Assembly: GCA_900095875.1 (NCBI GenBank)
Contig: LT608311.1
Location: 1,550,001-1,614,000, forward strand
Length of the DNA stretch: 64,000 bases
Origin: Caecibacter massiliensis
GTDB lineage: Bacteria > Bacillota > Negativicutes > Veillonellales > Megasphaeraceae
Direction: 5' to 3'
Part shown: in pieces, positions 20,413 through 63,020 of the stretch
How the letters are laid out: each line of letters starts with the position of its first letter
How positions within the stretch are numbered: the first letter of the stretch is position 1
Translations under genes and position numbers: made by a program
Notes under the pieces: generated by a model
What the model was told of the DNA's origin: nothing
Seen by the model: only the letters and a program-made list of their open reading frames with translations
Databases searched by the model: none

Positions 20413-22320
20413 ATGAAAGAATTACTGGATAAGCTGCTGCAGCGTCATAAGTATCTGGAACCGACTGCGGAAGAAGAACTGCGCCGTCAGGTGAATGTCC
20501 TGTACGGTGCCTTTACCGGCCTGATCGGTCCGGAAAAGATGGTTCTCCGGGCCAGCAAATATTCGGCTTTGGCGTACGTTCATTCGGAAGACCCCCGCCG
20601 TCGTATCGTCGGGCTGCAGCGGCTGGTCTATGAAGATGCGTCATATGATAAGGTGCCTTCTGATGACGAAGTTGTCGATGTCCTGAACGAGCTGGAGAAT
20701 GTGCTGGCAGAAATGCTGGCCCGTCAGGCCGTGGAAGAACGGCTGGAAAAGAAAATCAGCCAGCGCATGGAAGAAAAGCAGCAGGAGTACGTACAGGAAA
20801 TCAAAATGGAGCTCATCAAGGAGGAACTCCACGATGTGGAAACACCGCAGACGAAAAAAAAGCTGGACGATCTGCAGCATCTTGATTCCATTCATCTGAC
20901 AGAATCGGTCATGCAGCGCGTCCGGCCTAAAACGCTTTCAGCCATTGTAGGTCAGGACCGGGCTGTCGAAGCGATGGAAAGCAAGCTGGCATCGGTGTAT
21001 CCCCAGCACTTGCTCCTGTACGGGCCTCCCGGCGTGGGAAAAACGACGGCAGCCAGAATTGTCCTGAATGAGGCAAAAAAGCTGCCTTTTACGCCCTTTG
21101 GACCAGATGCGCCCTTTGTCGAAACGGACGGGGCGACACTGCGCTGGGATGCCCGCGATATGACCAATCCGCTCATCGGATCGGTCCACGATCCCATCTA
21201 TCAGGGTGCCCGTCATGACCTGGCTGAAACGGGGATTCCCGAACCAAAACCGGGACTGGTGACGGAAGCCCACGGCGGCATTCTGTTCATCGATGAAATT
21301 GGTGAAATGGATCCCATGCTGCTCAATAAACTCCTGAAAGTACTGGAAGACAAGCGGGTCCGCTTTGAATCAGCGTATTATGATGAAACGGATCCCCATA
21401 TTCCGGCGTATATCCGCAAATTATTTGCCGAAGGAGCGCCTGCTGATTTCGTGCTCATCGGTGCGACGACGAGGGATCCGTCAGAAATTAATCCGGCTAT
21501 CCGGTCCCGGTGCGCCGAAATATATTTCGAGCCCCTCGTGCCGGCTGATATCCAGCAGATCGTCACCAATGCGGCACAGTCCCTGGGTGTTACCATGGAG
21601 GACGGTGTAGCCGAACTGATTAGTACCTTTACTATTGAAGGGCGGAAAGCCGTCAATATCCTGGCCGATACGTACGGTCTGGCTGTCTTCCGCTCCGGCA
21701 GCAATGATCATGTCGTACTGACGAAAGAGCTGGTAGAGAGGGTGGCCCAGATCAGCCGTCTCGTCCCGTATGTGACCGAAAAAGCGTCATCCCTTCCGGC
21801 TGTGGGCAAAGTCTTTGGACTGGGCGTAGCCGGTTTTCTCGGTTCCGCCATCGAAATTGAAGCCGTTGCCTATCCGGCCCGTACGCCGGGAAAAGGGTAT
21901 TTCCGCTTCAATGATACGGCCGGCTCCATGGCCAAGGATTCCATGTTCAATGCCGCCGCTGTCGTACGCCGCATAACCGGTAAGGAATTGTCTGATTACG
22001 ATGTCAATGTCAACTTCGTTGGAGGTGGCAACATCGATGGCCCCTCGGCGGGTTGTGCCATCACGACGGCACTGATTTCGGCAGTTACGGGGAAAGCGGT
22101 CCGACAGGACATTGCCATGACTGGCGAAATTTCGATACAGGGACTTGTCAAGCCCGTCGGCGGTGTGTTTGAAAAAGCATACGGAGCTCGCCAGGCTGGC
22201 ATGAAAGGCATAGTGATTCCCGAAGAAAATCAGCGGGATATACCGGAGCATCATCTGAATCTTCAGATTTATAGTACCCGCACCATTGAGGAAGTCCTCG
22301 ATATCATGCTTGTAAAATAG
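20413..22320 (+). CDS. Lon-family ATP-dependent protease (LonB/LonC type)
   Basis: A 635-residue Lon-type protease lacking the large LON substrate-binding domain. It has its own helical N-terminus (1-165) with a charged coiled-coil near 105-155. Walker A is GPPGVGKT (204-211) and Walker B is LFIDE (D294/E295). The catalytic dyad is Ser545 in GPSAG and Lys588 in PVGGVFEK, 43 residues apart as in other Lons. This type is best known from endospore formers, as LonB or LonC. It sits between L9 and DnaB, 12 bases before the helicase gene. No membrane segment is seen. Confidence 0.85.
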   Translation: MKELLDKLLQRHKYLEPTAEEELRRQVNVLYGAFTGLIGPEKMVLRASKYSALAYVHSEDPRRRIVGLQRLVYEDASYDKVPSDDEVVDVLNELENVLAEMLARQAVEERLEKKISQRMEEKQQEYVQEIKMELIKEELHDVETPQTKKKLDDLQHLDSIHLTESVMQRVRPKTLSAIVGQDRAVEAMESKLASVYPQHLLLYGPPGVGKTTAARIVLNEAKKLPFTPFGPDAPFVETDGATLRWDARDMTNPLIGSVHDPIYQGARHDLAETGIPEPKPGLVTEAHGGILFIDEIGEMDPMLLNKLLKVLEDKRVRFESAYYDETDPHIPAYIRKLFAEGAPADFVLIGATTRDPSEINPAIRSRCAEIYFEPLVPADIQQIVTNAAQSLGVTMEDGVAELISTFTIEGRKAVNILADTYGLAVFRSGSNDHVVLTKELVERVAQISRLVPYVTEKASSLPAVGKVFGLGVAGFLGSAIEIEAVAYPARTPGKGYFRFNDTAGSMAKDSMFNAAAVVRRITGKELSDYDVNVNFVGGGNIDGPSAGCAITTALISAVTGKAVRQDIAMTGEISIQGLVKPVGGVFEKAYGARQAGMKGIVIPEENQRDIPEHHLNLQIYSTRTIEEVLDIMLVK

Positions 22321-22331
22321 GGGAGAATAGT

Positions 22332-23657
22332 ATGGAACAACGGATTCCGCCGCAGAATGTCGAAGCAGAACAGGCCGTACTCGGCGCCATGATGCTCGAC
22401 CATAATGCTGTCATCACGGCTATGGAAGTCCTGCAGCCCCATGATTTTTACCGGGAAATACACCGGACCATTTTTGAGGCTATGGAAAACCTGCACCGTG
22501 AAAATAAGGAAATCGATCTGATTACCTTACCGGAAGAGCTGCGCCGTATGAAAAAACTGGATGCAGCAGGCGGTCTGGAATACGTCCTCAGTCTGCCCAA
22601 TCTGGTGGCGACGGCAGCCAATATTGAATATCATGCCAATATCGTCAAAGACAAGGCAATGACCCGTGATCTCATCACGACATGTACGGATCTGACGACA
22701 GAAGCCTACGATGGAGAAAAAGAAGCAGACGAACTCATAGACGATGCGGAACGAAAAATATTCCACCTCGCTGAAAATAAAAAAAGCGGCGACTTTGATC
22801 CTGTCGGAAAAGTCGTCGAAGACACGCTGGATAAGATATCCAAGCTTTATGAAAATAAAGCCGGCCTGACGGGGCTGCCTACGGGATTCCGGGACCTTGA
22901 TAAGCTGACGTCGGGCTTGCAGCCATCAGACCTGATTCTCATTGCAGCCCGGCCGAGTATGGGCAAGACGGCCTTTACGCTGAATATTGCCCAGAATGTC
23001 GGTGTGCGTCAGCATAAGACGGTCGCTTTTTTCTCTCTGGAAATGAGCAAGGAACAGCTGGTGCAGCGGCTGCTGTGCCAGATTTCCCATATCGATTCCC
23101 AGAAGCTCCGGACAGGCCAGCTCAATACGGATAAGGACTGGGCCCAGCTTACCGATGCGTGTGACAAATTATATCAGGCGCCGATTTATATCGATGACAC
23201 GCCGGGGATTTCCGTATCGGAAATGCGCTCCAAGGCGCGGCGGCTGAAATCGGAACACGGTCTGGATTTGATTATCGTCGATTATCTGCAGCTCATGCAG
23301 GGACGGAATTCAGAAAGCCGACAGCAGGAAATTTCGGAAATTTCCCGTTCACTGAAAGCACTGGCAAGAGAGCTGAAAGTACCTCTTATCGCCCTTTCCC
23401 AGCTCAGCCGCAGTGTAGAAAGCCGCCAGGACAAGCGGCCCATGCTCAGTGACCTCCGCGAATCGGGGGCGTTGGAACAGGATGCGGATATTGTTGCCTT
23501 TCTCTACCGGGAAGATTATTACGATAAGGAAACAGAGAATCAGCATATTACGGAAGTCATCGTGGCCAAACACCGCAATGGCCCGACGGATACGGTTAAA
23601 CTCTACTTCCGTGGCGAATATACGCTGTTCCTGAATCTGGACCCGACTCACGAATAA
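22332..23657 (+). CDS. dnaB: Replicative DNA helicase
   Basis: A 441-residue hexameric helicase (dnaC in Bacillus naming). The N-terminal primase-interacting domain begins PPQNVEAEQAVLGAMM. The RecA-like domain has Walker A ARPSMGKTAF near 205 and LIIVDYLQLMQG near 318. No intein. Start is ATG after GGGGAGAA. It ends the housekeeping cluster at a terminator. Confidence 0.96.
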   Translation: MEQRIPPQNVEAEQAVLGAMMLDHNAVITAMEVLQPHDFYREIHRTIFEAMENLHRENKEIDLITLPEELRRMKKLDAAGGLEYVLSLPNLVATAANIEYHANIVKDKAMTRDLITTCTDLTTEAYDGEKEADELIDDAERKIFHLAENKKSGDFDPVGKVVEDTLDKISKLYENKAGLTGLPTGFRDLDKLTSGLQPSDLILIAARPSMGKTAFTLNIAQNVGVRQHKTVAFFSLEMSKEQLVQRLLCQISHIDSQKLRTGQLNTDKDWAQLTDACDKLYQAPIYIDDTPGISVSEMRSKARRLKSEHGLDLIIVDYLQLMQGRNSESRQQEISEISRSLKALARELKVPLIALSQLSRSVESRQDKRPMLSDLRESGALEQDADIVAFLYREDYYDKETENQHITEVIVAKHRNGPTDTVKLYFRGEYTLFLNLDPTHE

Positions 23658-36971: not shown

Positions 36972-37248
36972 ATAAAAAAAGCTCCCGTCCCCTTGTAAGG
37001 GACGGAAGCACCGTGATACCACCCAATTTCACCTGACTCTCACAAGCCAGGCCTCTTCAGGTACGCAGACCGTAGTCTTGAATACCATAGCACGATAACG
37101 GGTGCAACCGGACGGTCTAATTATTCGACCAATCTGCTCTGAGGCCATCTTCCACGGAATTCCCTGCGCTCCCTTTCACCGGACGGAAGCTCTCTGTGCC
37201 ATTTCCTTCCATGTACTCTTCTCTTCATTGCAACACTATCAAGTTGAT
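36972..37248 (-). ncRNA. T-box riboswitch, methionine specifier
   Basis: The metY leader reads on the minus strand as a full T-box. Stem I has AAGAGUA then CAUGGAA pairing with UUCCGUG. Directly after that arm comes GAAG-AUG-GCC, so AUG (37146-37148) sits where other T-boxes carry the specifier codon. The T-box sequence GGGTGGTATCACGG is at 37011-37024. A terminator stem GCTTCCGTCCC/GGGGACGGGAGC plus seven T follows (36973-37009). Uncharged tRNA-Met should stabilise the antiterminator and let metY be transcribed. Confidence 0.93.
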
Positions 37249-50894: not shown

Positions 50895-51228
50895 AGTGTA
50901 CAAAAATTAAATTACGGGTCTCATAAAGAAAGATTATAAATAAAAGACATATCTTTGTTGCACTTTATACAATCAAAGAGGAGAAAGAGCGATATAATAA
51001 AACCATCAAACAGCTCTACTTCTCTTGCAAACACCTCACTACAAAGCAAAAATGCCTGCAGTTTAAACTGCAGGCATTTTTGCTTCTGCAATAAAAAAAT
51101 AAAAACGTATCAGCTTATACAAACTTATAAAATAAACAGTGATATAATTTAATAACAAAAATACATATGAATGATGTTCTAATGGAATAATAAAAACAGG
51201 AATTTGTTCAAAAAGGAGGTAAAGCAGT
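50895..51228. other. AT-rich intergenic region with palindrome
   Basis: No convincing gene. It holds TATAAT at 50993-50998, the 42-base perfect palindrome at 51044-51085, an ATACAAAC motif (51117-51124) and a TATAAT at 51143-51148 that may serve the following dehydrogenase gene. An in-frame stretch at 50955-51152 has no ribosome binding site and crosses the palindrome, so I do not call it. Confidence 0.55.
51044..51085. terminator. Perfect 42-base loopless palindrome, terminator-like
   Basis: Perfect 21-bp arms with no loop in the double strand, centred on CTGCAGTTTAAACTGCAG, with A5 and T5 runs in the arms. As RNA the central bases would open into a loop. It can end the small membrane protein transcript or a short RNA begun near 51005. 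Confidence 0.65.
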
Positions 51229-52125
51229 ATGAACCGTAATGTGAAAAAGAAAGTTGGTTTTCTGGGACTCGGTGTCATGGGAATGCCTATGTCGGAGAAT
51301 GTTATCAGAAAATCAGGGTGTGAGGTCTATGGATATGACGTAGTACCAGAAAAGATGGGGGCATTTTCCAAGGCTGGAGGCCATGCAGCAGCCAGTGCGG
51401 AAGAAGTTTACAAGAACTGCGACATTATTATGCAGATGCTGCCGACTCATGCGATTATCACCCATTCTGTCGAACAAGCCGTAAAATACGGCAAAAAAGG
51501 AAACATCATCATTGATCTTTCCTCGGCAGCACCGCACATTATCCTGGAATTATACCCGAAAGTAAAAGAAGCCGGGATGTATCTTCTTGATTCCCCCGTA
51601 AGTGGCGGCAACCCCAAAGCCAAAGACGGGACGCTGGCCATCATGACTGGTGGCGACAAGGATATCTTTGAAAAAGTCAAACCACTTCTTGAGTGCATGG
51701 GCGAACCGGTATATACCGGCGGTTCCGGCAGTGGTGATGTGACGAAACTGGTCAATAACACGATTGGAGGGGCTTATCTGGCCGCTATTGCAGAGGGCTA
51801 TGCCTTTGCAGCCAAGGCCGGTATCGACCTGCAGACGACCTTCGAAGCGACGCGGTGTGGTTTTGCCGGCGGCCCCCTGTACGACAATAAGGTACCGAAA
51901 ATCATTGCCCGCGATTACGAACCGGGTGCCCGCATTGCCGTCCATCGCAAAGATATTCTCAATGCCAAGAGTTATGCCCACAAACTGGGTATTGACCTGC
52001 CGATGACGGATGTGACACTGCGTATTATGGACTGGATGAATGACAATGGCTATATCGATATCGATCAGGCCGGTATGATTAAATACTTTGAAGACAAAAT
52101 GGATGTGACTGTTGGTAAAAAATAA
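51229..52125 (+). CDS. Beta-hydroxyacid dehydrogenase, copy A (3-hydroxyisobutyrate/tartronate-semialdehyde reductase family)
   Basis: A 298-residue NAD(P)-dependent enzyme. The Rossmann motif GFLGLGVMGMP (residues 10-20), substrate loop DSPVSGGNPKAKDG (122-135) and catalytic Lys in VTKLVNNT (about 173) are intact. VHRKDILNA follows near 240. The family interconverts short beta-hydroxyacids and semialdehydes; the exact substrate is not readable. ATG behind AAAGGAGG. An MFS transporter gene follows after 27 bases. The last 234 residues are almost identical to copy B 3.5 kb downstream. Confidence 0.9.
   Translation: MNRNVKKKVGFLGLGVMGMPMSENVIRKSGCEVYGYDVVPEKMGAFSKAGGHAAASAEEVYKNCDIIMQMLPTHAIITHSVEQAVKYGKKGNIIIDLSSAAPHIILELYPKVKEAGMYLLDSPVSGGNPKAKDGTLAIMTGGDKDIFEKVKPLLECMGEPVYTGGSGSGDVTKLVNNTIGGAYLAAIAEGYAFAAKAGIDLQTTFEATRCGFAGGPLYDNKVPKIIARDYEPGARIAVHRKDILNAKSYAHKLGIDLPMTDVTLRIMDWMNDNGYIDIDQAGMIKYFEDKMDVTVGKK
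51421..52125 (+). repeat. Duplicated dehydrogenase segment, copy A
   Basis: This 705-base stretch matches 54899-55603 without gaps. The encoded 234 residues differ at five positions, while the first about 64 codons are clearly more diverged. Confidence 0.85.
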
Positions 52126-52152
52126 GTGAACGGCAAAAGAAAGGTGATGACA

Positions 52153-53481
52153 ATGAATGGTACAGGAACTGTCAACGTAAGTGCATTATATAAAAAAAGA
52201 GGCTGGCATATCATATTTCCCGTATTCCTCGTCTCTGTCGTAGCTTTTCTGGATCGTGTTAATATTGCTTATGCCGGCATGACTATGACACAGACGCTGG
52301 ACTGGTTATCACCGGAAATTTTTGGTGCCGGTGCCGGCATGTTCTTTATTGGATATTTCTTTTTTGAAATCCCCGGTTCTCTGGTGGCAGCCCGCTTCGA
52401 TGCCTGCCGATGGATTGCCCGCATTATGTTTTCTTGGGGGCTGGTCTGCGGACTCATGGCATTTATGCAGAGCCCGTTCCAGTTTTATCTCTTCCGATTC
52501 CTGCTGGGTGCCTGTGAGGCCAGTCTGTATCCGGTCATTTATGCCGTACTTTTCCCTCGCTGGTTTATGGCAGATGAACTGGCCAAAGCGACTTCGCTTA
52601 TGCTGACGTCACTATTAATTGCAGCTATCATTGGTGCGCCACTGGCTGGCGTACTTCTGGAAATGCAATTGTTCGGCCTGCTCGGATGGCAGAGTCTGTT
52701 CCTGCTAGAGGCCGTACCGGCCTTGCTCCTGACTTTTGTATTTTATTTTGGCATTCCCGACCGGCCGGAAAAAGCAAAATGGCTGACTGAGGATGAAAGA
52801 CGTTATCTCGTCGATACCTTTGCGGAAGAAACACAGCGGAAAAACCGGGCCAAATCTTATTCCGTATGGCAGGCATTTACGGATAAGAAAGTATGGCTCT
52901 TATGTGTCATTTATTTTGGTCAGGCTTTGGGATTCTGGGGCTTTAATTTCTGGATGCCACAGGTATTAAAAGGGCTCTCGGGCTGGTCTACTTCTATGGT
53001 CGGCGGTATTATTGCGATTCCCATGACCATTGCCCTTGTCTTCCAGATATTCTGGGGAATCCATTCGTCAAAGACACGGGAAAAACGCTGGCACGTAGCA
53101 GGATGTATGTTTCTGGCTGCTTTCGGACTCGCGGCGGCGCCGTTCTTTACTAATCCTTTTATCAGCCTGGGCCTGATTACGCTGACTTGTATTGGCGTTT
53201 ATGGCCAGCTGGGAATCTGGTGGACCGTGCCGACTACGTTCCTGAGCGGTGCCGCTGCAGCCGGAGCCTCGGCGATGATTAATTCCATTGCCAATCTTGG
53301 TGGATATGTGGGACCATATATGTTGGGCGTAGTCAAGACGAATACGGGAACGTACGATCTGGGCTATTTTATCCTGGCGGGATCGCTGGCTTGTTCCGGC
53401 CTGCTGATGCTTACCCTGAAAAAGACAACGGCTCCCCAGACGGCAGATATTCCGACTTCATCTTCTGAAGAAGCCGGATGA
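52153..53481 (+). CDS. MFS transporter, ACS (anion:cation symporter) family, copy A
   Basis: A 442-residue 12-segment transporter. FPVFLVSVVAFLDRVNIAYA (residues 23-42), DRVNIAYAG and GPYMLG are ACS-family marks; the family imports organic anions such as sugar acids, tartrate or phthalate. I use ATG 52153, with GAAAGGTGA upstream, over GTG 52126. It pairs with dehydrogenase copy A and ends at a terminator. A paralog lies at 58.5 kb. Confidence 0.88.
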   Translation: MNGTGTVNVSALYKKRGWHIIFPVFLVSVVAFLDRVNIAYAGMTMTQTLDWLSPEIFGAGAGMFFIGYFFFEIPGSLVAARFDACRWIARIMFSWGLVCGLMAFMQSPFQFYLFRFLLGACEASLYPVIYAVLFPRWFMADELAKATSLMLTSLLIAAIIGAPLAGVLLEMQLFGLLGWQSLFLLEAVPALLLTFVFYFGIPDRPEKAKWLTEDERRYLVDTFAEETQRKNRAKSYSVWQAFTDKKVWLLCVIYFGQALGFWGFNFWMPQVLKGLSGWSTSMVGGIIAIPMTIALVFQIFWGIHSSKTREKRWHVAGCMFLAAFGLAAAPFFTNPFISLGLITLTCIGVYGQLGIWWTVPTTFLSGAAAAGASAMINSIANLGGYVGPYMLGVVKTNTGTYDLGYFILAGSLACSGLLMLTLKKTTAPQTADIPTSSSEEAG

Positions 53482-53497
53482 TGAACGTTATGAAATG

Positions 53498-53548
53498 AAA
53501 AGGACCTGTTGTATGGATAGTTTCTGCTATCATACAACAGGTCTTTTT
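53498..53548. terminator. Terminator between MFS copy A and the Crp/Fnr remnant
   Basis: AAAAGGACCTGTTGTATG and CATACAACAGGTCTTTTT arms with an inner GATAG/CTATC pair; it works in both directions. Confidence 0.92.
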
Positions 53549-53558
53549 AGTGAAGTGC

Positions 53559-54208
53559 TTAATAAAATTCTTTATTTTCGAAGATTTCGCGCAATGTATG
53601 CTTATCTAGTATTTCCAGGCTTTTGTATTGCATGGCAATAATGTTTTTCTTTGCCAGAGCATCGAGGATGCGCGTTGCCGTTACGCGGCTCATGCCGGTT
53701 ACTTCAGCAATCTGCCCATGGGTCAGTTTGATTGGGGAATTGGAAGTGGACGATATGGTAATAAAAGGCAGGCTATTTTTTCTTCGTTACGCTGAAACTG
53801 GGCATAGAAAATCCAGCTGTGAAGCAATGTGATTTTCCGCATAAAAAAGGTCAGGATACCCAGTGTTAAATCCGGATTATGGATGGCCTTCTGTAATAAT
53901 TCTGTAGAGGAACAACGATACAAGACGGATTTATTCAGCGTATCCGTGCAGACAATGCGTCGTTGTGGGTAATTGAATGCGTCTTCTCCGATGATGGTGT
54001 TGCGGGGGAAATAGCATAATGTCCGCTCCGTGCCGTCAGGATAGGGAATATAGACACGTATCATGCCACTTTGGATATAATACAAATTCTGCGCTTCTTC
54101 GTTTTTGGTAAATATGATCTGTCGCGGGTTGTAAATCTCGCGGATGCCGTATTGCCGGAAGACAGTGATGAGTTTGCTATTTAATAGGACAAATTCATTA
54201 TTTGTCAT
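53559..54208 (-). pseudogene. Crp/Fnr-family regulator split by a one-base frameshift
   Basis: The first 161 codons (from ATG 54208, behind GGAGGGG) encode a cyclic-nucleotide-type sensor domain ending in NEEKIACLLL, then run out of frame to a stop at 53723. In the -1 frame the expected HTH continues at once: TISSTSNSPIKLTHGQIAEV, then TGMSRVTATRILDAL, to a stop at 53559. The break is near 53755-53768. An intact protein would have about 216 residues, normal for the family. Either the gene is dead, it depends on frameshifting, or the base is a sequencing error. It sits next to the catabolic operons it may once have controlled. Confidence 0.85.
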
Positions 54209-54706
54209 TTCTATCCCCTCCTGTATTAGATACTGTATGGAAATTATACGGTATATTATAAGCGAACATAATAATTAGATATCGCATTTAGCTTATAGTA
54301 TAAATGAATTTTTGTCAACTAAAACGATTGATATGTAATGATTGATACACATTTTACAAATATATTAAAATTATACAAACCAATTAAATGAATATTAATA
54401 CATAATAATTAATAAAAACAAAATATAATAAAAATATCAAGAAAACTATGAATGAAAAAATATTAAGTGAAAAAAGACACAAATACGATAAAAATAAAAA
54501 ATGACATTATATTTTTTTGAAATTAAAACGATATACGCAAAAATAAAAGTAAGAAATTCACTACAAAGGTATAAAGTGATACAAACGAGTATAAGCCGCT
54601 GTGTTAAAATATACATAACAAGAAGCGATACATGATATGAGTTAAAAGAATTAAAAGCTTTAAAATAGAATATGCGAGTGCTAAGTTAGCAGAAAGGATG
54701 ACGGAA
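54209..54706. other. Very AT-rich control region upstream of the second dehydrogenase
   Basis: About 500 bases with no gene and much lower G+C than the rest. It has two ATACAAAC motifs (54373-54380 and 54579-54586), many TATA-like stretches, and a TGCTAA-G-TTAGCA palindrome (54679-54691) just before the ribosome binding site. It should hold the divergent promoters of the Crp/Fnr gene and the catabolic operon, but I cannot single out one. Confidence 0.55.
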
Positions 54707-55603
54707 ATGGAAAATCAGATGAACGTAAAAATTGGTTTCCTCGGATTGGGTGTCATGGGGTTGCCGATGGCAGAAAATGTCGTCAGGAAATCAGGCTGTG
54801 AAGTGTACGGGTATGATGTAGTTCCGGAAAAGTTGCAGGCTTTTGCCGATTTCGGCGGACATGCGCTGGGATGTGCCGAAGATGTGTATAAGACAAGCGA
54901 TATCATCATGCAGATGCTTCCGACTCATGCGATTATCATCCATTCTGTCGAACAAGCTGTCAAATACGGTAAAAAAGGAAACATCATCATTGATCTTTCC
55001 TCAGCAGCACCGCACATTATCCTGGAATTATACCCGAAAGTAAAAGAAGCCGGGATGTATCTTCTCGACTCCCCTGTAAGCGGTGGCAATCCCAAGGCTA
55101 AAGATGGAACGCTGGCCATCATGACTGGCGGCGACAAGGATATCTTTGAAAAAGTTAAACCGCTTCTCGAATGCATGGGTGAACCGGTATATACTGGCGG
55201 TCCCGGCAGCGGTGATGTGACTAAACTGGTCAATAATACCATTGCTGGTGCCTATCTGGCAGCAATTACAGAAGGCTATGCCTTTGCAGCCAAGGCCGGC
55301 ATCGACCTGCAGACGACCTTCGAAGCGACGCGGTGTGGTTTTGCCGGTGGTCCCTTGTACGACAATAAAGTACCGAAAATCATCGCTCGTGATTATGAAC
55401 CGGGTGCCCGCATTGCCGTCCATCGCAAAGACATTCTCAATGCCAAGAGCTATGCCCACAAACTGGGAATCGACCTGCCGGTGACGGACGTGACTCTGCG
55501 TATCATGGACTGGATGAATGACAACGGCTATATCGATATTGATCAGGCCGGTATGATTAAATATTTTGAAGATAAAATGGATGTTACGGTTGGGAAAAAG
55601 TAG
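54707..55603 (+). CDS. Beta-hydroxyacid dehydrogenase, copy B
   Basis: A 298-residue paralog of copy A, with GFLGLGVMGLP, DSPVSGGNPKAKDG and VTKLVNNT intact. From residue 65 on, the two proteins differ at only five positions; before it they differ at about a quarter of positions. I choose ATG 54707 because AGAAAGG directly touches the upstream ATG at 54698. It opens an operon with an MBL-fold protein and the dehydrogenase complex. Same reaction type as copy A, perhaps different expression. Confidence 0.9.
   Translation: MENQMNVKIGFLGLGVMGLPMAENVVRKSGCEVYGYDVVPEKLQAFADFGGHALGCAEDVYKTSDIIMQMLPTHAIIIHSVEQAVKYGKKGNIIIDLSSAAPHIILELYPKVKEAGMYLLDSPVSGGNPKAKDGTLAIMTGGDKDIFEKVKPLLECMGEPVYTGGPGSGDVTKLVNNTIAGAYLAAITEGYAFAAKAGIDLQTTFEATRCGFAGGPLYDNKVPKIIARDYEPGARIAVHRKDILNAKSYAHKLGIDLPVTDVTLRIMDWMNDNGYIDIDQAGMIKYFEDKMDVTVGKK
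54899..55603 (+). repeat. Duplicated dehydrogenase segment, copy B
   Basis: Gap-free match to 51421-52125. Long identical runs interrupted by mostly third-position changes point to gene conversion rather than an old duplication alone. Confidence 0.85.
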
Positions 55604-55612
55604 TGAGGCTAT

Positions 55613-56383
55613 ATGCAGATTGTGAATGTAGGAAATGCCGGAATTTATCTGACCGATGAGAAACAGTCTATTTTAATCGATGGACTGTACGGCGTCAATG
55701 AATTCTTCCATGACCGTCCGCAATTGCTTTTGAAAGCGGCTTCGGGGCAGACGCGCAGTTTCCGGAACATCGAAAATCTGCTGTTTACTCATCGCCATCA
55801 GGATCACTTTGATAGTCAGCTGGTTAATATGTACATAAAAAACAACCAGGTTGCGCATGCATACGTTCCGGCTCCTTGTAAGCCCGGACGGGCCTATGAA
55901 GATACAGAGCCCGTCGGGACGGCAGGAAATACGGAACTGTTTACCGTCGGTGCCAGTGATGAAGAAATCTTCTATCATCCTCTGAATGACACCATGTGGG
56001 CTGTCTTTTTCAAGACACGGCACATGGGAGCAGATATCTTTTCTGTCCGTCATTACAGTCTGGCTCTCGTGGGCAATGGCGAAAGCTACCTGTTCATGAG
56101 CGATGCTGACTGGAGTTGTTCTGTCCGGAATGTACAGGAAATCATCAAGGGAACAAAATTGAAAGCCTTATTCGTCAATCCCCTTTCCTATATTGATCAG
56201 GCTGGGAAATCGTGGATGCGGCGTATTCAGCCGGAATCAGTGATTGTATACCACATACCGTATACAGACCGGGGGCAGACCGGTATCCGGGCTCTTGCAG
56301 AAGAGATTGCCCGGTGCCATCACACAATGCCCTGGAAACTGCACATACTGGAACACCGGCTGCAACGATTGATTATTAATTAG
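55613..56383 (+). CDS. Metallo-beta-lactamase-fold hydrolase
   Basis: A 256-residue protein of the MBL superfamily, distantly like UlaG-type lactonases. The metal motif is THRHQDHFD (residues 62-70), an early Asp is in ILIDGLYGV, and FMSDADWS and VYHIPYTD may supply further ligands. No signal peptide. It starts nine bases after dehydrogenase copy B. Lactone or ester opening of the pathway substrate is a fair guess, not shown. Confidence 0.75.
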   Translation: MQIVNVGNAGIYLTDEKQSILIDGLYGVNEFFHDRPQLLLKAASGQTRSFRNIENLLFTHRHQDHFDSQLVNMYIKNNQVAHAYVPAPCKPGRAYEDTEPVGTAGNTELFTVGASDEEIFYHPLNDTMWAVFFKTRHMGADIFSVRHYSLALVGNGESYLFMSDADWSCSVRNVQEIIKGTKLKALFVNPLSYIDQAGKSWMRRIQPESVIVYHIPYTDRGQTGIRALAEEIARCHHTMPWKLHILEHRLQRLIIN

Positions 56384-56456: not shown

Positions 56457-57428
56457 ATGGAAAAAACGTACGACAAGAATTTGCTTTTGGAAGCATACCG
56501 GAAAATGACGACAATCCGGGCTTACGAATCAAAAGTTGAAGAAATCTTTCTTGCCGGGGAACTGCCGGGATTTACCCATCTGTATATCGGCGAAGAAGCC
56601 TGCGGTGTCGGGGTCTGCTCTAATTTAAATAAAGATGATTATATTGAAAGTACACACCGCGGCCATGGTCATTGTATCGCAAAAGGTGCTGATGTCAAAA
56701 AGATGATGGCAGAATTGTACGGGAAAGAAACGGGCTATTGCCATGGCAAAGGCGGGTCCATGCATATCGCTGATTTCTCTATCGGTATGCTCGGTGCCAA
56801 CGGCGTTGTCGGTGCTGGGTACAACCTGGCTATGGGCGCAGCTCTGGCAGCCAAACTGAGAGGTACGAAACAGGTTGCTGTTGCATTCTTCGGCGATGGC
56901 GCATCCAACCGTGGTACATTCCATGAATCGGTCAATATGGCGGCTGTATGGAAACTGCCGGTTCTGTACGTATGCGAAATGAACCAATGGGCTTCGACGA
57001 CACCGTATCTGACTACGACATCTGTCAAAGATATTTCTGATCGTGCCCATGGATATGGTATTCCGGGCAAACATGTCAACGGCAATGATTTCTTTGCTGT
57101 ATATGACGCTGCCAAAGAAGCCATCGATTACGTCCGCAGTGGCAAAGGTCCGTATCTCCTCGAACTGAAAACCTACCGTATCAAAGGCCATTACGTAGGC
57201 GATCCGGAAAAATATCGTACAAAAGAAGAAGTACAGGAACATTTCCAGAACGATGATCCCATTAAGAATTTCCGCAAGACCGTCCTCGCCAAGAAATGGC
57301 TGACAGAAGAAGAAATGGATAAGATGGATCAGGATGCCAAAGACCTGGTACTGGAAGCTGTAAAAGAAGCAGAAGCGGCTCCCTATCCTGATGAATCGGA
57401 ACTGATGCAGAACTATTATTGCGAATAA
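56457..57428 (+). CDS. acoA: 2-oxo-acid/acetoin dehydrogenase E1 component, alpha subunit
   Basis: A 323-residue TPP-dependent E1 alpha subunit. The TPP/Mg motif GDGASNRGTFHESVNMA lies at residues 147-163, and HRGHGHCIAKGAD near 62 is typical. Together with the beta subunit it decarboxylates or cleaves the substrate and acylates lipoyl-E2. Size and sequence style fit acetoin dehydrogenase (AcoA), but a pyruvate or branched 2-oxo-acid complex cannot be excluded. ATG behind AAAGGAGAGA. Confidence 0.87.
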   Translation: MEKTYDKNLLLEAYRKMTTIRAYESKVEEIFLAGELPGFTHLYIGEEACGVGVCSNLNKDDYIESTHRGHGHCIAKGADVKKMMAELYGKETGYCHGKGGSMHIADFSIGMLGANGVVGAGYNLAMGAALAAKLRGTKQVAVAFFGDGASNRGTFHESVNMAAVWKLPVLYVCEMNQWASTTPYLTTTSVKDISDRAHGYGIPGKHVNGNDFFAVYDAAKEAIDYVRSGKGPYLLELKTYRIKGHYVGDPEKYRTKEEVQEHFQNDDPIKNFRKTVLAKKWLTEEEMDKMDQDAKDLVLEAVKEAEAAPYPDESELMQNYYCE

Positions 57429-57464: not shown

Positions 57465-58442
57465 ATGAGAAAAATTACTTTTTCCGTAGCAACGCAGGAA
57501 GCGATGAAAGAAGAAATGCAGCGTGATAAAAATGTATTCCTGATGGGTGAAGATATTGCCCGTCAGGGTGGGATTTTCGGTCAGTTTGCAGGCCTGGCTG
57601 ACGAATTCGGCAAAGAACGTGTTCGTGATACGCCGATTTCGGAAACGGCTATCATCGGCGGCGGCGTCGGTGCAGCTCTGGCCGGTATGCGTCCTGTCGT
57701 CGATATGCACTTTGCTGACTTTATCGGCGTACCGATGGACGAAATCTTCAATCAGATGGCAAAGGCACGCTACATGTTTGGCGGACAGGCCAAGGTACCT
57801 ATTGTCCTGCGTGCTCCTGATGGCATGACCCGTGGTGGCGCTGCCCAGCATTCCCAGTGCGTTGAAGCCTGGTTTATGCATATTCCTGGTTTAAAAGTCG
57901 TTATCCCATCCAATCCGGCAGATGCCAAAGGTCTCCTGAAATCGGCTATCCGCAGTGATGATCCGGTTATCTATTTCGAACATAAGAAATTATTCTCCAT
58001 GAAGGGCGAAGTACCGGAAGGCGAACTCCTTGTTCCTATCGGAAAAGCAAACGTTGCCAAAGAAGGCACAGACCTGACTATCGTTTCCTATTCCTTCTAT
58101 ATGACCAATGTTCTCAAAGCAGCGGCACAGCTCGATAAAGAAGGAATCCACGTAGAATGCATCGATCTGCGTACTATTTCGCCACTCGACATGGATACCA
58201 TTTATGAATCCCTGAAAAAGACGAAGAAACTCATGATTGTACACGAAGCTGTTAAACAGGGCGGCGTCGGTGCTGAAGTAGCAGCCCGTACGGCAGAAGA
58301 AATGATTGATTACCTCGATGCACCTATCGTACGTCTCGGCGCTCCGTTTGTACCCATTCCGTACACTCCGCCTCTGGAACGGCTGGTCAAGATCGAACCG
58401 GAAGATATCATCAAAGCCGTCAAAGAAATGCTTGGCCGGTAA
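57465..58442 (+). CDS. acoB: 2-oxo-acid/acetoin dehydrogenase E1 component, beta subunit
   Basis: A 325-residue transketolase-like E1 beta. VFLMGEDIARQGGIFGQFAG (residues 24-43) holds the Glu that activates TPP, and RDTPISETAIIGGGVGAAL and VRLGAPFVPIPYTPPLE are family marks. Start ATG after AAGGAGG, 36 bases after the alpha subunit. Confidence 0.9.
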   Translation: MRKITFSVATQEAMKEEMQRDKNVFLMGEDIARQGGIFGQFAGLADEFGKERVRDTPISETAIIGGGVGAALAGMRPVVDMHFADFIGVPMDEIFNQMAKARYMFGGQAKVPIVLRAPDGMTRGGAAQHSQCVEAWFMHIPGLKVVIPSNPADAKGLLKSAIRSDDPVIYFEHKKLFSMKGEVPEGELLVPIGKANVAKEGTDLTIVSYSFYMTNVLKAAAQLDKEGIHVECIDLRTISPLDMDTIYESLKKTKKLMIVHEAVKQGGVGAEVAARTAEEMIDYLDAPIVRLGAPFVPIPYTPPLERLVKIEPEDIIKAVKEMLGR

Positions 58443-58479: not shown

Positions 58480-59793
58480 ATGGATGCAAAGTATGAAAGT
58501 ATCGATTTTACACACTTGGACCGGATGAGAAAATGGCATATCATATTTCCCGTTTTCCTCGTATCCGTTATCGCGTTCCTCGACCGTGTCAACATTGCCT
58601 ATGCCGGCATGACTATGACACAGCAACTGGACTGGCTGACACCGGAAGTATTCGGTGCCGGTTCCGGGATGTTCTTCCTCGGATATTTCTTCTTTGAAAT
58701 TCCTGGGTCCCTTGTGGCAGCCCGGTTTGATGCCTGCAAGTGGATTGCCCGTATCATGTTTACTTGGGGCCTCGTCTGCGGCCTGCTGGCATTCATGCAG
58801 AATTCCTGGCAGTTCTATCTGTTCCGTTTCCTCTTAGGTGCTTGTGAAGCCAGCCTGTACCCCGTTATCTACGCCGTACTCTTCCCCCGCTGGTTCCTTG
58901 CAAAAGAACGGGCTGCCGCTATTTCTCTGATGCTCACATCGCTGCTCATCGCCGCTATCATCGGATCGCCTATCGCCGGTATCCTGCTTGAATTTCGGAT
59001 TTTAGGGTTTGAAGGATGGCAGTGCCTGTTCCTCATCGAAGCGGTTCCGGCTCTGGTATTCACGTTCGTATTCCTCTTCTGGGTTAAAGATCGTCCCGAT
59101 AAAGTATCCTATCTGACACCGCTTGAAAAAGAATATCTGAATACGACCATCGCTGCTGAAGAAGCCGCGAAAGAAAGCGTCAAGAAGTATACTATCTGGC
59201 AGTCTCTGACAGATAAACAAGTATGGCGTCTGTGTGTCATTTATTTCACCTGGATCACCGGTTTCTGGGGTTTCAATTTCTGGATGCCCCAGGTGCTGAA
59301 AGGTGTATCCGGCTGGTCCCCGTCCCTTGTCGGCTTTGCCATTATCTTCCCCATGGGCGCAGCCCTCATTGCACAGGTTCTGGTTGGCAAGAGTTCCTCC
59401 AAGACAGGTGAAAAACGCTGGCACGTGGCAGGATGCATGTTCCTCGGTGCTGTCGGTCTCATTTGTGCTCCCTTTATCCATGATGGTCTTCTCAGCCTGA
59501 TTTTCGTCAGCATCACGGCTATCGGCGTATATGCCCCGATGGGTACCTGGTGGTCTGTACCGACAACGTTCCTCACTGGTGCAGCGGCTGCAGGTGCTAC
59601 GGCACTGATCAACTCCATCGCTAACCTCGGCGGGTATGTCGGACCGTATATGCTCGGTGTTATCAAACAGAATACGGGTTCTACTGACGGCGGCTACTTT
59701 GCCCTCGGCGCAATGCTCATCATTTCCGGTCTGGTTATGCTGACACTGCCGAAGAAGACGGCTATTGAAGAAGCGACAGAAAAAGAAAAATAA
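58480..59793 (+). CDS. MFS transporter, ACS family, copy B
   Basis: A 437-residue paralog of the 52.2-kb transporter, with the same FPVFLVSVIAFLDRVNIAYA start and NFWMPQVLKG region. ATG 58480 follows AGAAAGGG. Its place between E1 beta and E2 inside the complex operon strongly suggests that it brings in the substrate of this pathway. Loops and the region around residues 200-235 differ most between copies, which may alter specificity. Confidence 0.9.
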   Translation: MDAKYESIDFTHLDRMRKWHIIFPVFLVSVIAFLDRVNIAYAGMTMTQQLDWLTPEVFGAGSGMFFLGYFFFEIPGSLVAARFDACKWIARIMFTWGLVCGLLAFMQNSWQFYLFRFLLGACEASLYPVIYAVLFPRWFLAKERAAAISLMLTSLLIAAIIGSPIAGILLEFRILGFEGWQCLFLIEAVPALVFTFVFLFWVKDRPDKVSYLTPLEKEYLNTTIAAEEAAKESVKKYTIWQSLTDKQVWRLCVIYFTWITGFWGFNFWMPQVLKGVSGWSPSLVGFAIIFPMGAALIAQVLVGKSSSKTGEKRWHVAGCMFLGAVGLICAPFIHDGLLSLIFVSITAIGVYAPMGTWWSVPTTFLTGAAAAGATALINSIANLGGYVGPYMLGVIKQNTGSTDGGYFALGAMLIISGLVMLTLPKKTAIEEATEKEK

Positions 59794-59871: not shown

Positions 59872-60120
59872 ATGGCCACTGAAATCACGATGCCCCAATT
59901 AGGCCTGACCATGACAGAAGGTACCGTATCTTCCTGGCTGAAGCAGGAAGGCGATCCCGTCAAAAAAGGCGATGAAATCGTTGAAATCGAAACAGATAAA
60001 ATCAGTAACGTTGTAGAAGCCCATGAAGATGGCGTGCTCCTGAAAATTGTTGCCCAGGAAGGCGATACGCTTCCCGTAAAAGGCGTGCTCGGCTATATCG
60101 GCCAGCCTGGTGAAAGCGTA
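59872..60120 (+). repeat. Lipoyl-domain coding repeat, E2 copy
   Basis: The first about 83 codons match those of the E3 gene (61302-61550) with two amino-acid changes (Pro/Thr at 29, Pro/His at 68). Confidence 0.85.
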
Positions 60121-61239
60121 GGAGCCCCGGCGGCGCCGGCAGCTGCTCCCGCAGCAGAAGAAAGCCCGGCCGTGCAGGCTGTGCCGGTTGTAGCAGATAC
60201 GACGCCGGCTGTCTCGACAGCCATTCCGGTACAGAATGTCAGCGTCAATGGATGGGTACTGGCTACCCCGTACGCCCGCAAACTGGCGCGTGAAGCCGGC
60301 ATTGATCTGGCTCTCGTATCGGGAACCGGCCCGAAGGGACGGGTAACCGGAAAAGATGTAGAAGAATATAAAGAAGATACCCATGTCCGTATATCCCCGA
60401 CAGCCGCCAAAGTGGCAGCCGATCTGGGAGTGGATCCGTCCATCATTACGGCCGACGGCCGTATCATGAAAGCCGATGTCCTGAAGGCAGCTGGCGTAGA
60501 ACCGGCACCGGCGGCCGCCGTAGCAGCTCCGGCACCGGCCGCACCGGCCAAGGAAGAAAAACCGGCACCGGCAAATGGTGTCAAACTGAAAGGTATGCGC
60601 AAGGTTATTGCCCAGCGCCTGGGTGATTGCTGGCGGAATACCCCGCACGTTCATCATACCGTAGAAGTCAATATGACCGAAGCGACAGAACTGCGGAAGA
60701 AATTCATTGCCATGGACAAGAAGTTCTCCTTTACAGACCTCATCATCAAAGCGATGGCAAAAGTACTGGAAGAATACACGAATGCCAATGACAGCCTCGT
60801 AGATGGCTACCTGATTCATAATGAAGAAATCAATATGGGCGTGGCCGTTGCGATTGACAGCGGACTGATTGTACCGGTCATCCGCAATGCCAACCACCTG
60901 GGACTGATGGATATCCATAAGAAAGTAGGCGAACTGGCACATGCAGCCCGCGATGGAAAACTGTCGCCGGATCAGCTGCAGGGCGGAACGTGCACGATCA
61001 GCAATCTGGGGATGTATGGATGCGATCACTTTACTCCAATCGTCAATCCGCCGGAAGCAACCATACTCGGTGTATGCCGTACGGTAGAAAAAACGATAGT
61101 CGTTGATCATCAGATTGTCATTGCGCCGATGATGAACGTCGTCCTCGGATATGATCACCGGGTCATCGATGGAGCGACTGCCGGACTGGTTACGACACGG
61201 CTTCGCGAATATCTGGAAAACCCGCTGCTTCTCTTATAA
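59872..61239 (+). CDS. acoC: Dihydrolipoamide acyltransferase (E2) with two subunit-binding domains
   Basis: A 455-residue E2. The lipoyl domain is residues 1-80 (lipoyl Lys43 in ETDKISN). After an Ala/Pro linker comes a subunit-binding domain (about 129-166, TPYARKLAREAGID and GRVTGKDV) and then a second similar one (about 174-208, SPTAAKVAADLGVD and GRIMKADVL). After another linker the catalytic domain covers 237-455 with GYDHRVIDGA (His429, Asp433). ATG behind AAGGAGG. Two such domains in tandem are uncommon. Confidence 0.9.
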   Translation: MATEITMPQLGLTMTEGTVSSWLKQEGDPVKKGDEIVEIETDKISNVVEAHEDGVLLKIVAQEGDTLPVKGVLGYIGQPGESVGAPAAPAAAPAAEESPAVQAVPVVADTTPAVSTAIPVQNVSVNGWVLATPYARKLAREAGIDLALVSGTGPKGRVTGKDVEEYKEDTHVRISPTAAKVAADLGVDPSIITADGRIMKADVLKAAGVEPAPAAAVAAPAPAAPAKEEKPAPANGVKLKGMRKVIAQRLGDCWRNTPHVHHTVEVNMTEATELRKKFIAMDKKFSFTDLIIKAMAKVLEEYTNANDSLVDGYLIHNEEINMGVAVAIDSGLIVPVIRNANHLGLMDIHKKVGELAHAARDGKLSPDQLQGGTCTISNLGMYGCDHFTPIVNPPEATILGVCRTVEKTIVVDHQIVIAPMMNVVLGYDHRVIDGATAGLVTTRLREYLENPLLLL

Positions 61240-61279: not shown

Positions 61280-61301
61280 TATCCATAGGAGGTAATACGT
61301 G

Positions 61302-61550
61302 ATGGCTACTGAAATTACGATGCCCCAGCTGGGTCTGACCATGACTGAGGGGACAGTATCTTCCTGGCTGAAACAAGAAGGAGATACCGTCAAAAAAGGC
61401 GATGAAATCGTTGAAATCGAAACAGATAAAATCAGCAATGTAGTAGAAGCCCATGAAGATGGCGTACTTCTCAAGATTGTTGCCCAGGAAGGCGATACGC
61501 TTCATGTAAAGGGCGTGCTCGGCTATATCGGCCAGCCTGGTGAAAGCGTA
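61302..61550 (+). repeat. Lipoyl-domain coding repeat, E3 copy
   Basis: Direct repeat of 59872-60120. Some 40-base runs are identical in DNA while others carry silent changes. Confidence 0.85.
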
Positions 61551-63020
61551 GGAGAACCGGCTGCCCAGGCTGCACCAGCAGCTCCCGCTCCGGCGGCTCC
61601 GGCACCGACACCGGCAGCTCCAGCACAGACAGGCAAGAAACGCATTGTCGTCATCGGCGCAGGCCCTGGCGGATATGTTACGGCTATCAAGGCAGCCCAG
61701 CTGGGAGCAGATGTATCTATCGTAGAAAATGACAAAGTGGGCGGTACCTGCCTTAATGTCGGATGTATTCCGACAAAAGCATTGATTCACGCCAGCTCTT
61801 TGTATGAAGCAGTCATCAACGATGCTGAAAAAGTCGGTGTCAGCTTTACCGGTGTCAGTGTAGACTGGGGTAAAGCACAGCAGTTCAAAAAATCCATCGT
61901 CAATCGTCTGGTCGGTGGCGTCGAAGGACTGCTGAAGGCCAATGGCGTAAAGAAATACGTAGGAAAAGGCATTGTCAAAGATGCCCATACGGTACAGGTC
62001 GGTGGCCAGCTTATCCCCGCTGATGACATTATTCTGGCTGTAGGTTCTGAACCGGTTCATCTCCGTTTCCCTGGGGCCGATTTGCCGGGTGTCATTGACA
62101 GCACGGGTGCACTGGCTCTGGATAAGATTCCTGCTTCGCTGGTTATCATCGGCGGTGGCGTCATCGGCATCGAATTTGCATCCATGTTTGCTTCCGTAGG
62201 CACTAAATGCACTATCGTGGAAGCATTGCCCAATATCCTGCCGCCTATCGATAAAGAAATCGTTGGCATGGTACAGGCGGATCTGGAAAAACGGGGCATT
62301 ACGATTCTGACGAGTGCCAAAGTAGAATCCATCAGTCAGGCTGCGGGCGGACTGGAAGTACATATGGATTATAAAGGACAGAAACAGTCTGTACAGGGAG
62401 AAAAAGTCATCATGGCAGTAGGACGCAGAGCGATGACTGCCGGTATCGGCCTGGAAGAATTGGGCGTTGCCATGAATCGTGGCAAAATTGTAACGGATGA
62501 TCATTTTCAGACCAATATCCCAAGTATTTATGCAATCGGCGATTGCAATGGCAAACTGATGCTGGCTCATGCTGCATCGGCCCAGGGCGTGGCTGCTGTA
62601 GAATACATCCTCACAGGCAAAGGCGAATATCATGCAGAAACGGTTCCGTCCTGCATCTATCTCAACCCGGAAGTTGCCAGTGTAGGGATGAAAGAAGAAC
62701 AGCTGATAGAAAAAGGCATTGCCTATAAGGCAGGTAAATTCCCGCTTTCCGGCAATGGCAAGACTCTCATTGAAAATGGCGGCAAAGGCATCATCAAGAT
62801 CCTTGCCGATACGAAGTATGGACAGGTACTGGGCGTACACATGTATGGTCCGCGGGTTACCGATTTGATTGCAGCCTGCGCACTGGCTATCCGCCTGGAA
62901 GCTACTGTCGATGAATTGATTACCACCGTGTGGGCGCATCCGACAGTGGGCGAAGCCATTGGTGAAGCAGCTTTGGATGTATTCCAGAATCCAATTCACT
63001 GGCCACCCAAGAAAAAATAA
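61302..63020 (+). CDS. acoL: Dihydrolipoamide dehydrogenase (E3) with N-terminal lipoyl domain
   Basis: A 572-residue E3. The lipoyl domain (1-80, Lys43) and an Ala/Pro linker (85-110) precede a full flavoprotein. FAD motif GAGPGGY (119-125), redox disulfide Cys150/Cys155 in GGTCLNVGCIPTKA, NAD motif GGGVIGIEFA and the C-terminal WAHPTVGEA (active-site His/Glu) are all present. It re-oxidises lipoamide and makes NADH. An E3 with its own lipoyl arm is known from some acetoin dehydrogenase systems. ATG 61302 is nine bases past GGAGG. Confidence 0.93.
   Translation: MATEITMPQLGLTMTEGTVSSWLKQEGDTVKKGDEIVEIETDKISNVVEAHEDGVLLKIVAQEGDTLHVKGVLGYIGQPGESVGEPAAQAAPAAPAPAAPAPTPAAPAQTGKKRIVVIGAGPGGYVTAIKAAQLGADVSIVENDKVGGTCLNVGCIPTKALIHASSLYEAVINDAEKVGVSFTGVSVDWGKAQQFKKSIVNRLVGGVEGLLKANGVKKYVGKGIVKDAHTVQVGGQLIPADDIILAVGSEPVHLRFPGADLPGVIDSTGALALDKIPASLVIIGGGVIGIEFASMFASVGTKCTIVEALPNILPPIDKEIVGMVQADLEKRGITILTSAKVESISQAAGGLEVHMDYKGQKQSVQGEKVIMAVGRRAMTAGIGLEELGVAMNRGKIVTDDHFQTNIPSIYAIGDCNGKLMLAHAASAQGVAAVEYILTGKGEYHAETVPSCIYLNPEVASVGMKEEQLIEKGIAYKAGKFPLSGNGKTLIENGGKGIIKILADTKYGQVLGVHMYGPRVTDLIAACALAIRLEATVDELITTVWAHPTVGEAIGEAALDVFQNPIHWPPKKK

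Follow-up and report, generated by a model that had tools for sequence, protein, structure and literature searches.

Results

A split regulator gene between two reductase operons

The window, the whole 64,000-nucleotide stretch of Caecibacter massiliensis DNA analysed here, contains a Crp/Fnr regulator gene on the minus strand (54208-53559) that is split across two frames. The gene is flanked by GarR-like reductases, MFS transporters and thiamine-diphosphate dehydrogenase subunits (Table 1). Across the regulator from reductase copy 2 lies a second reductase-transporter pair (51229-53481), whose reductase is 91% identical to that copy. Per 60-base block, the reductases are 58-83% identical over their first 240 bases and mostly above 83% identical over the remainder. 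This block pattern, together with 91% identity between the reductases as against 68% between the transporters, is what gene conversion or a later duplication would produce. Transporter 1 and the regulator are convergent, and the long inverted repeat that separates them (53498-53548) runs into a stretch of T and is likely a shared terminator; the terminator scan did not report it. Across the window, Rfam gave one match above threshold, a T-box leader at 36995-37237 on the minus strand.

Table 1. Coordinates of the regulator parts, predicted sites and flanking genes, given as positions in the window
Feature	Position	Strand	Remarks
Predicted operator TTGTAT-N4-T-N-ATAC, reductase copy 1	51107..51122	-	pattern match
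-10 box TATAAT, copy 1	51143..51148	+	22 bases after GTA-N8-TAC core; without -35 box
GarR-like reductase copy 1	51229..52125	+	best NCBIfam match 2-hydroxy-3-oxopropionate reductase, below cut-off
MFS transporter 1	52126..53481	+	D-galactonate/ACS type, below cut-off
HTH part of regulator, -1 frame	53559..53786	-	HTH_Crp_2 match 53583-53735
Sensor (cNMP-binding-like) and dimerisation part	53723..54208	-	last 12 residues, after residue 149, out of frame
Break: two bases against a three-base Tyr codon in all five orthologues	53760..53761	-	alignment, tblastn
A6 run within overlap of frames	53776..53781	-	two intact orthologues have it too; the break lies elsewhere
TGTA-N8-TACA site, regulator's own upstream region	54334..54349	.	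2 exact in window; 7/100 shuffles reach 2
Predicted operator TTGTAT-N4-T-N-ATAC, reductase copy 2	54569..54584	-	pattern match
-10 box TAAAAT, copy 2	54605..54610	+	22 bases after GTA-N8-TAC core; without -35 box
GarR-like reductase copy 2	54698..55603	+	divergent from regulator
Metallo-beta-lactamase-fold-like protein	55613..56383	+	weak NCBIfam match only
Thiamine-diphosphate dehydrogenase E1 alpha	56457..57428	+	
Thiamine-diphosphate dehydrogenase E1 beta	57465..58442	+	
MFS transporter 2	58480..59793	+	68% identical to transporter 1; family search and comparison used start 58459, seven codons earlier
E2-like acyltransferase with lipoyl domain	59872..61239	+	named from translation alone
E3-like dihydrolipoyl dehydrogenase, N-terminal lipoyl domain	61299..63020	+	named from translation alone

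The sensor frame opens with an ATG at 54208 and runs for 161 codons to a TGA stop (53725-53723). The HTH frame, shifted by -1 from that of the sensor, follows a stop at 53789-53787 and stays open from 53786 until the TAA at 53561-53559; the two frames overlap at 53786-53726. Pfam matched the sensor part to cNMP_binding (PF00027; 43.1 bits against a cut-off of 27.5, E 4.3e-11) and the HTH part to HTH_Crp_2 (PF13545; 43.9 bits against a cut-off of 27, E 2.3e-11). The reading frames and Pfam matches bear out the first-pass annotation, which described an intact HTH domain in the -1 frame. Its view that both parts read as good Crp/Fnr protein also holds, since both match Pfam and both fit one orthologous family. 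Three invariant cysteines occur in the sensor part of this family, at alignment positions 65, 87 and 147.

The break lies in a conserved tyrosine codon

We searched 61 genomes of the order and found the regulator in this genome and in five others: Anaeroglobus geminatus, Colibacter massiliensis, Megasphaera cerevisiae, a Megasphaera MAG and M. paucivorans. The five orthologues from these Megasphaera relatives are all unbroken. Each carries both Crp/Fnr domains in one ORF, which the gene in this genome does not, and at 215-217 aa they agree with the full length of about 216 residues proposed earlier. For a DAHP-synthase-like enzyme, protein identity to the nearest of the compared genomes is 78-81%.

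In tblastn, each of the five orthologues matched this DNA in two pieces. The sensor piece ended at 53762, whilst the HTH piece began at 53759 for two orthologues and at 53750 for the other three. Against the Anaeroglobus protein, the sensor piece is 62% and the HTH piece 57% identical. Chance was ruled out because both pieces align with the same orthologous family along its length. The break is flanked by the codons TTA (53764-53762) and ACC (53759-53757), and the two bases between them, 53761-53760, fall within the interval 53755-53768, where the frame change had been expected. A homopolymer slip at the A6 run was considered as the break site and ruled out, as the orthologue match continues five residues (IACLL) beyond the run.

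The arrangement around the regulator is shared among these relatives. All five have the regulator transcribed divergently from a GarR-like reductase, and in three (Anaeroglobus, Colibacter and M. cerevisiae) this reductase is followed by the metallo-beta-lactamase-like, E1 alpha, E1 beta and MFS genes, as in the window. Among 17 genomes of the family, regulator (E <= 1e-20) and reductase (E <= 1e-60) were found in the same six. In the Anaeroglobus draft (L014 828-1958, minus strand), the ORF for the operon's transporter spans just 376 aa and its end looks unrelated, probably the result of a frameshift or an assembly fault. A literature search combining Megasphaera with the name of the reductase found nothing.

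Predicted operators and promoters

The operator pattern TTGTATNNNNTNATAC had exactly two matches in the whole 2.65-Mb genome, each upstream of a reductase, but as it was written after viewing these promoters, the low count does not amount to an independent discovery. Relative to predicted start points, both reductase promoters have GTA-N8-TAC at about -41.5; each carries a TAN3T -10 box and lacks a -35 box. These are the features of an NtcA-type promoter, and the arrangement is that of class II activator promoters. At 16-18 spacing, -35 hexamers were matched at 0-2 of 6 positions in both. The window holds 32 oriented GTA-N8-TAC cores, three of which have a -10 box (at least 5/6) at 21-23 bases, and two of these three are the reductase promoters. 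An operator common to both reductase promoters, together with the divergent layout in five of five relatives, supports the earlier suggestion that the regulator is tied to the flanking dehydrogenase-transporter operons. A weak sigma-70-like site (9/12) was also seen at 54642-54671 before reductase copy 2, its count not above that in shuffles. A looser operator, TTGTA-N8-TACAA with 2 mismatches, was uninformative, giving 1012 matches per strand against 1263 in the control.

In M. cerevisiae, the five oriented TTGTATNNNNTNATAC matches fall at three places, each of them near the regulator within C159:81431-82874. The third copy in M. cerevisiae (C159:82857-82874) is palindromic and lies past the regulator's end. 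Colibacter has a single match, at the locus, and Anaeroglobus has matches at two places, one of them the locus. The M. paucivorans pair has 2 and 4 matches, none at the locus, which carries a variant GTA-N8-TAC about 360 bases from the reductase start; this site may serve the regulator's own promoter. Eleven genomes without the regulator gave 25 matches, 0 to 5 each. From site to -10 box, M. cerevisiae has a spacing of 21 bases and the M. paucivorans pair one of 22. Anaeroglobus and Colibacter also carry the site, but their best -10 boxes at 21-23 bases are weak (4/6 and 3/6, respectively), and equal or better ones are found at 17.

Relation to known regulators

Searched alone against solved structures, the HTH matched three NtcA sequences best (E 2.1e-4 to 2.6e-4), and a RVT.TR stretch is common to the two. 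The regulator could not be placed as an NtcA orthologue over the whole protein. In the whole-protein profile other Crp proteins outrank NtcA, with 4ev0 first (7.6e-13 against 9.6e-11 for NtcA), and NtcA is nearest to the HTH alone. NtcA promoters, as described in PMC3898017, have a TAN3T -10 box and, at about -41.5, GTAN8TAC. The likeness to NtcA covers HTH kinship, the RVT.TR recognition stretch, the GTA-N8-TAC operator, class II spacing and a TAN3T-like -10 box. By contrast, NtcA is a cyanobacterial Crp-family nitrogen regulator, whilst the regulator described here is found outside the cyanobacteria, lies beside one catabolic locus and is broken.

E. coli CRP shares the fold family (1hw5, E 4.8e-12) and the class II geometry. 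The CRP site is TGTGA, whereas that predicted for this regulator is TGTA. CRP contacts bases through Arg180, Glu181 and Arg185, as described in PMC12531629, and the Glu contact position is Val or Ile in this regulator family. The halo-respiration regulator CprK (Crp/Fnr; 3e5u, 2h6b) also gave a full-length profile match (E 6.2e-12). CprK comes from the same broad bacterial group as this regulator but differs in its target site and belongs to a different locus. Two further Crp-type proteins of this genome exceed the Pfam cut-off, and both have different recognition segments. Judged by these segments, neither would be expected to act as a stand-in for the regulator.

Discussion

We put a probability of about 0.58 on the reading that a dedicated activator of both operons has been lost by a recent and real one-base deletion, leaving the operons weakly expressed. 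The gene would encode a transcription activator of the Crp superfamily, with NtcA-type DNA recognition and dedicated to this locus. Its intact dimer would bind the GTA-N8-TAC sites, centred about -41.5 in both GarR-like reductase promoters, and bring RNA polymerase to these promoters, which lack a -35 box. The one-base deletion in the conserved Tyr codon, at the junction of sensor and HTH, would cut the HTH off the product. What remains would be a 161-residue protein unable to bind DNA, with both operons weakly expressed as a result. Binding, activation and loss of expression are predictions from the sequence, and we infer that the deletion lies in the cell's DNA and not in the assembly. The first-pass annotation had suggested that loss of the regulator would rewire the flanking operons. 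That the regulator belongs to these operons was supported, but the consequence is better described as an activator being lost. The two target promoters show activator geometry and lack a -35 box, and low expression would therefore be expected.

The same annotation held that the break must be recent, programmed or an error. Decay was seen in neither half, judged by identity and by codon-position ratios against intact pairs. The sensor half (149 residues) is 57-62% identical to three same-genus orthologues and 47-48% to two from a sister genus; for the HTH half the corresponding identities are 54-57% and 52-53%. Ratios of change at codon positions 1+2 to position 3 were 0.76-1.14 (sensor) and 0.90-1.07 (HTH) in pairs with the window gene, compared with 0.99-1.18 and 0.98-1.30 in intact pairs of like distance. 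The lack of decay in the HTH half points to a recent break or an assembly error, and the intact operators and promoters of the regulon likewise indicate a loss that is recent or only apparent. An assembly or sequencing error, with the gene intact in the cell and one base lost from the consensus, would fit these observations, and a single-base indel is a typical residual error. However, the missing base lies outside any long homopolymer and the genome (2.65 Mb) is in two contigs and 100% complete. Furthermore, in a 400-kb sample of this genome 93 non-overlapping genes, totalling 35,769 residues, were compared with a relative and none showed a frameshift, a count that still permits about 3% (rule of three). 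That relative lacks the regulator, so the break itself could not show in the count; the method does split the regulator when orthologues serve as queries. The count in the relative, with overlapping ORFs removed, was 0/95. Coarser passes that included overlapping and antisense ORFs gave 1/87 and 1/183 queries in this genome, both at the same place, and 1/74 and 2/142 in the relative. The candidate in this genome (window 21928-22634) resembled an antisense reading with many stops and was gone once overlaps were removed. An error is accordingly a possible but tentative explanation, and these data do not separate it from a recent mutation.

The programmed alternative fared worse. Ribosomal or transcriptional slippage, programmed or tolerated, could yield some full-length regulator, as the frames overlap, the HTH is conserved and one codon in the overlap is slippable in the P site: the Lys AAA starting at 53779, within the A6 run, stays the same codon when the frame slips by -1. 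Slippage there would, however, swap out the conserved IACLL stretch, and the two intact orthologues that share the A6 run do so with no change of frame. No slippery heptamer X XXY YYZ occurs in the sensor frame at 53790-53723. Folds at 53690-53785 and 53660-53775 are ordinary (z 0.12 and -0.19, pseudoknots outside the test), giving no sign of a stimulatory RNA structure. A third fold further downstream in the HTH (53559-53675) reached z -1.95, with 7/200 shuffles equally good. The frame change is not conserved, all five orthologues being unbroken, and slippage is thus improbable. A literature search found no ribosomal frameshifting together with the regulator family, a weak negative as the spelling 'Crp/Fnr' may escape matching. 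Low-level regulator made by slippage on the A6 Lys codon, the frame change setting the dose of an NtcA-like activator of two duplicated operons, is a still more speculative and highly improbable idea. It is least credible of all that the sensor and HTH halves function as separate proteins. The HTH frame alone makes a good domain, but its first ATG lies inside the HTH, no ATG, GTG or TTG precedes the domain core, and the halves are fused in five of five orthologues.

The favoured reading is therefore the loss of a dedicated activator through a recent deletion. The one-base break itself is ordinary. The locus offers a predicted regulon of one regulator and two promoters, with NtcA-like recognition, in Megasphaera relatives. 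As the regulator is apparently lost whilst its sites persist, this genome would provide a natural test of how far the operons depend on it.
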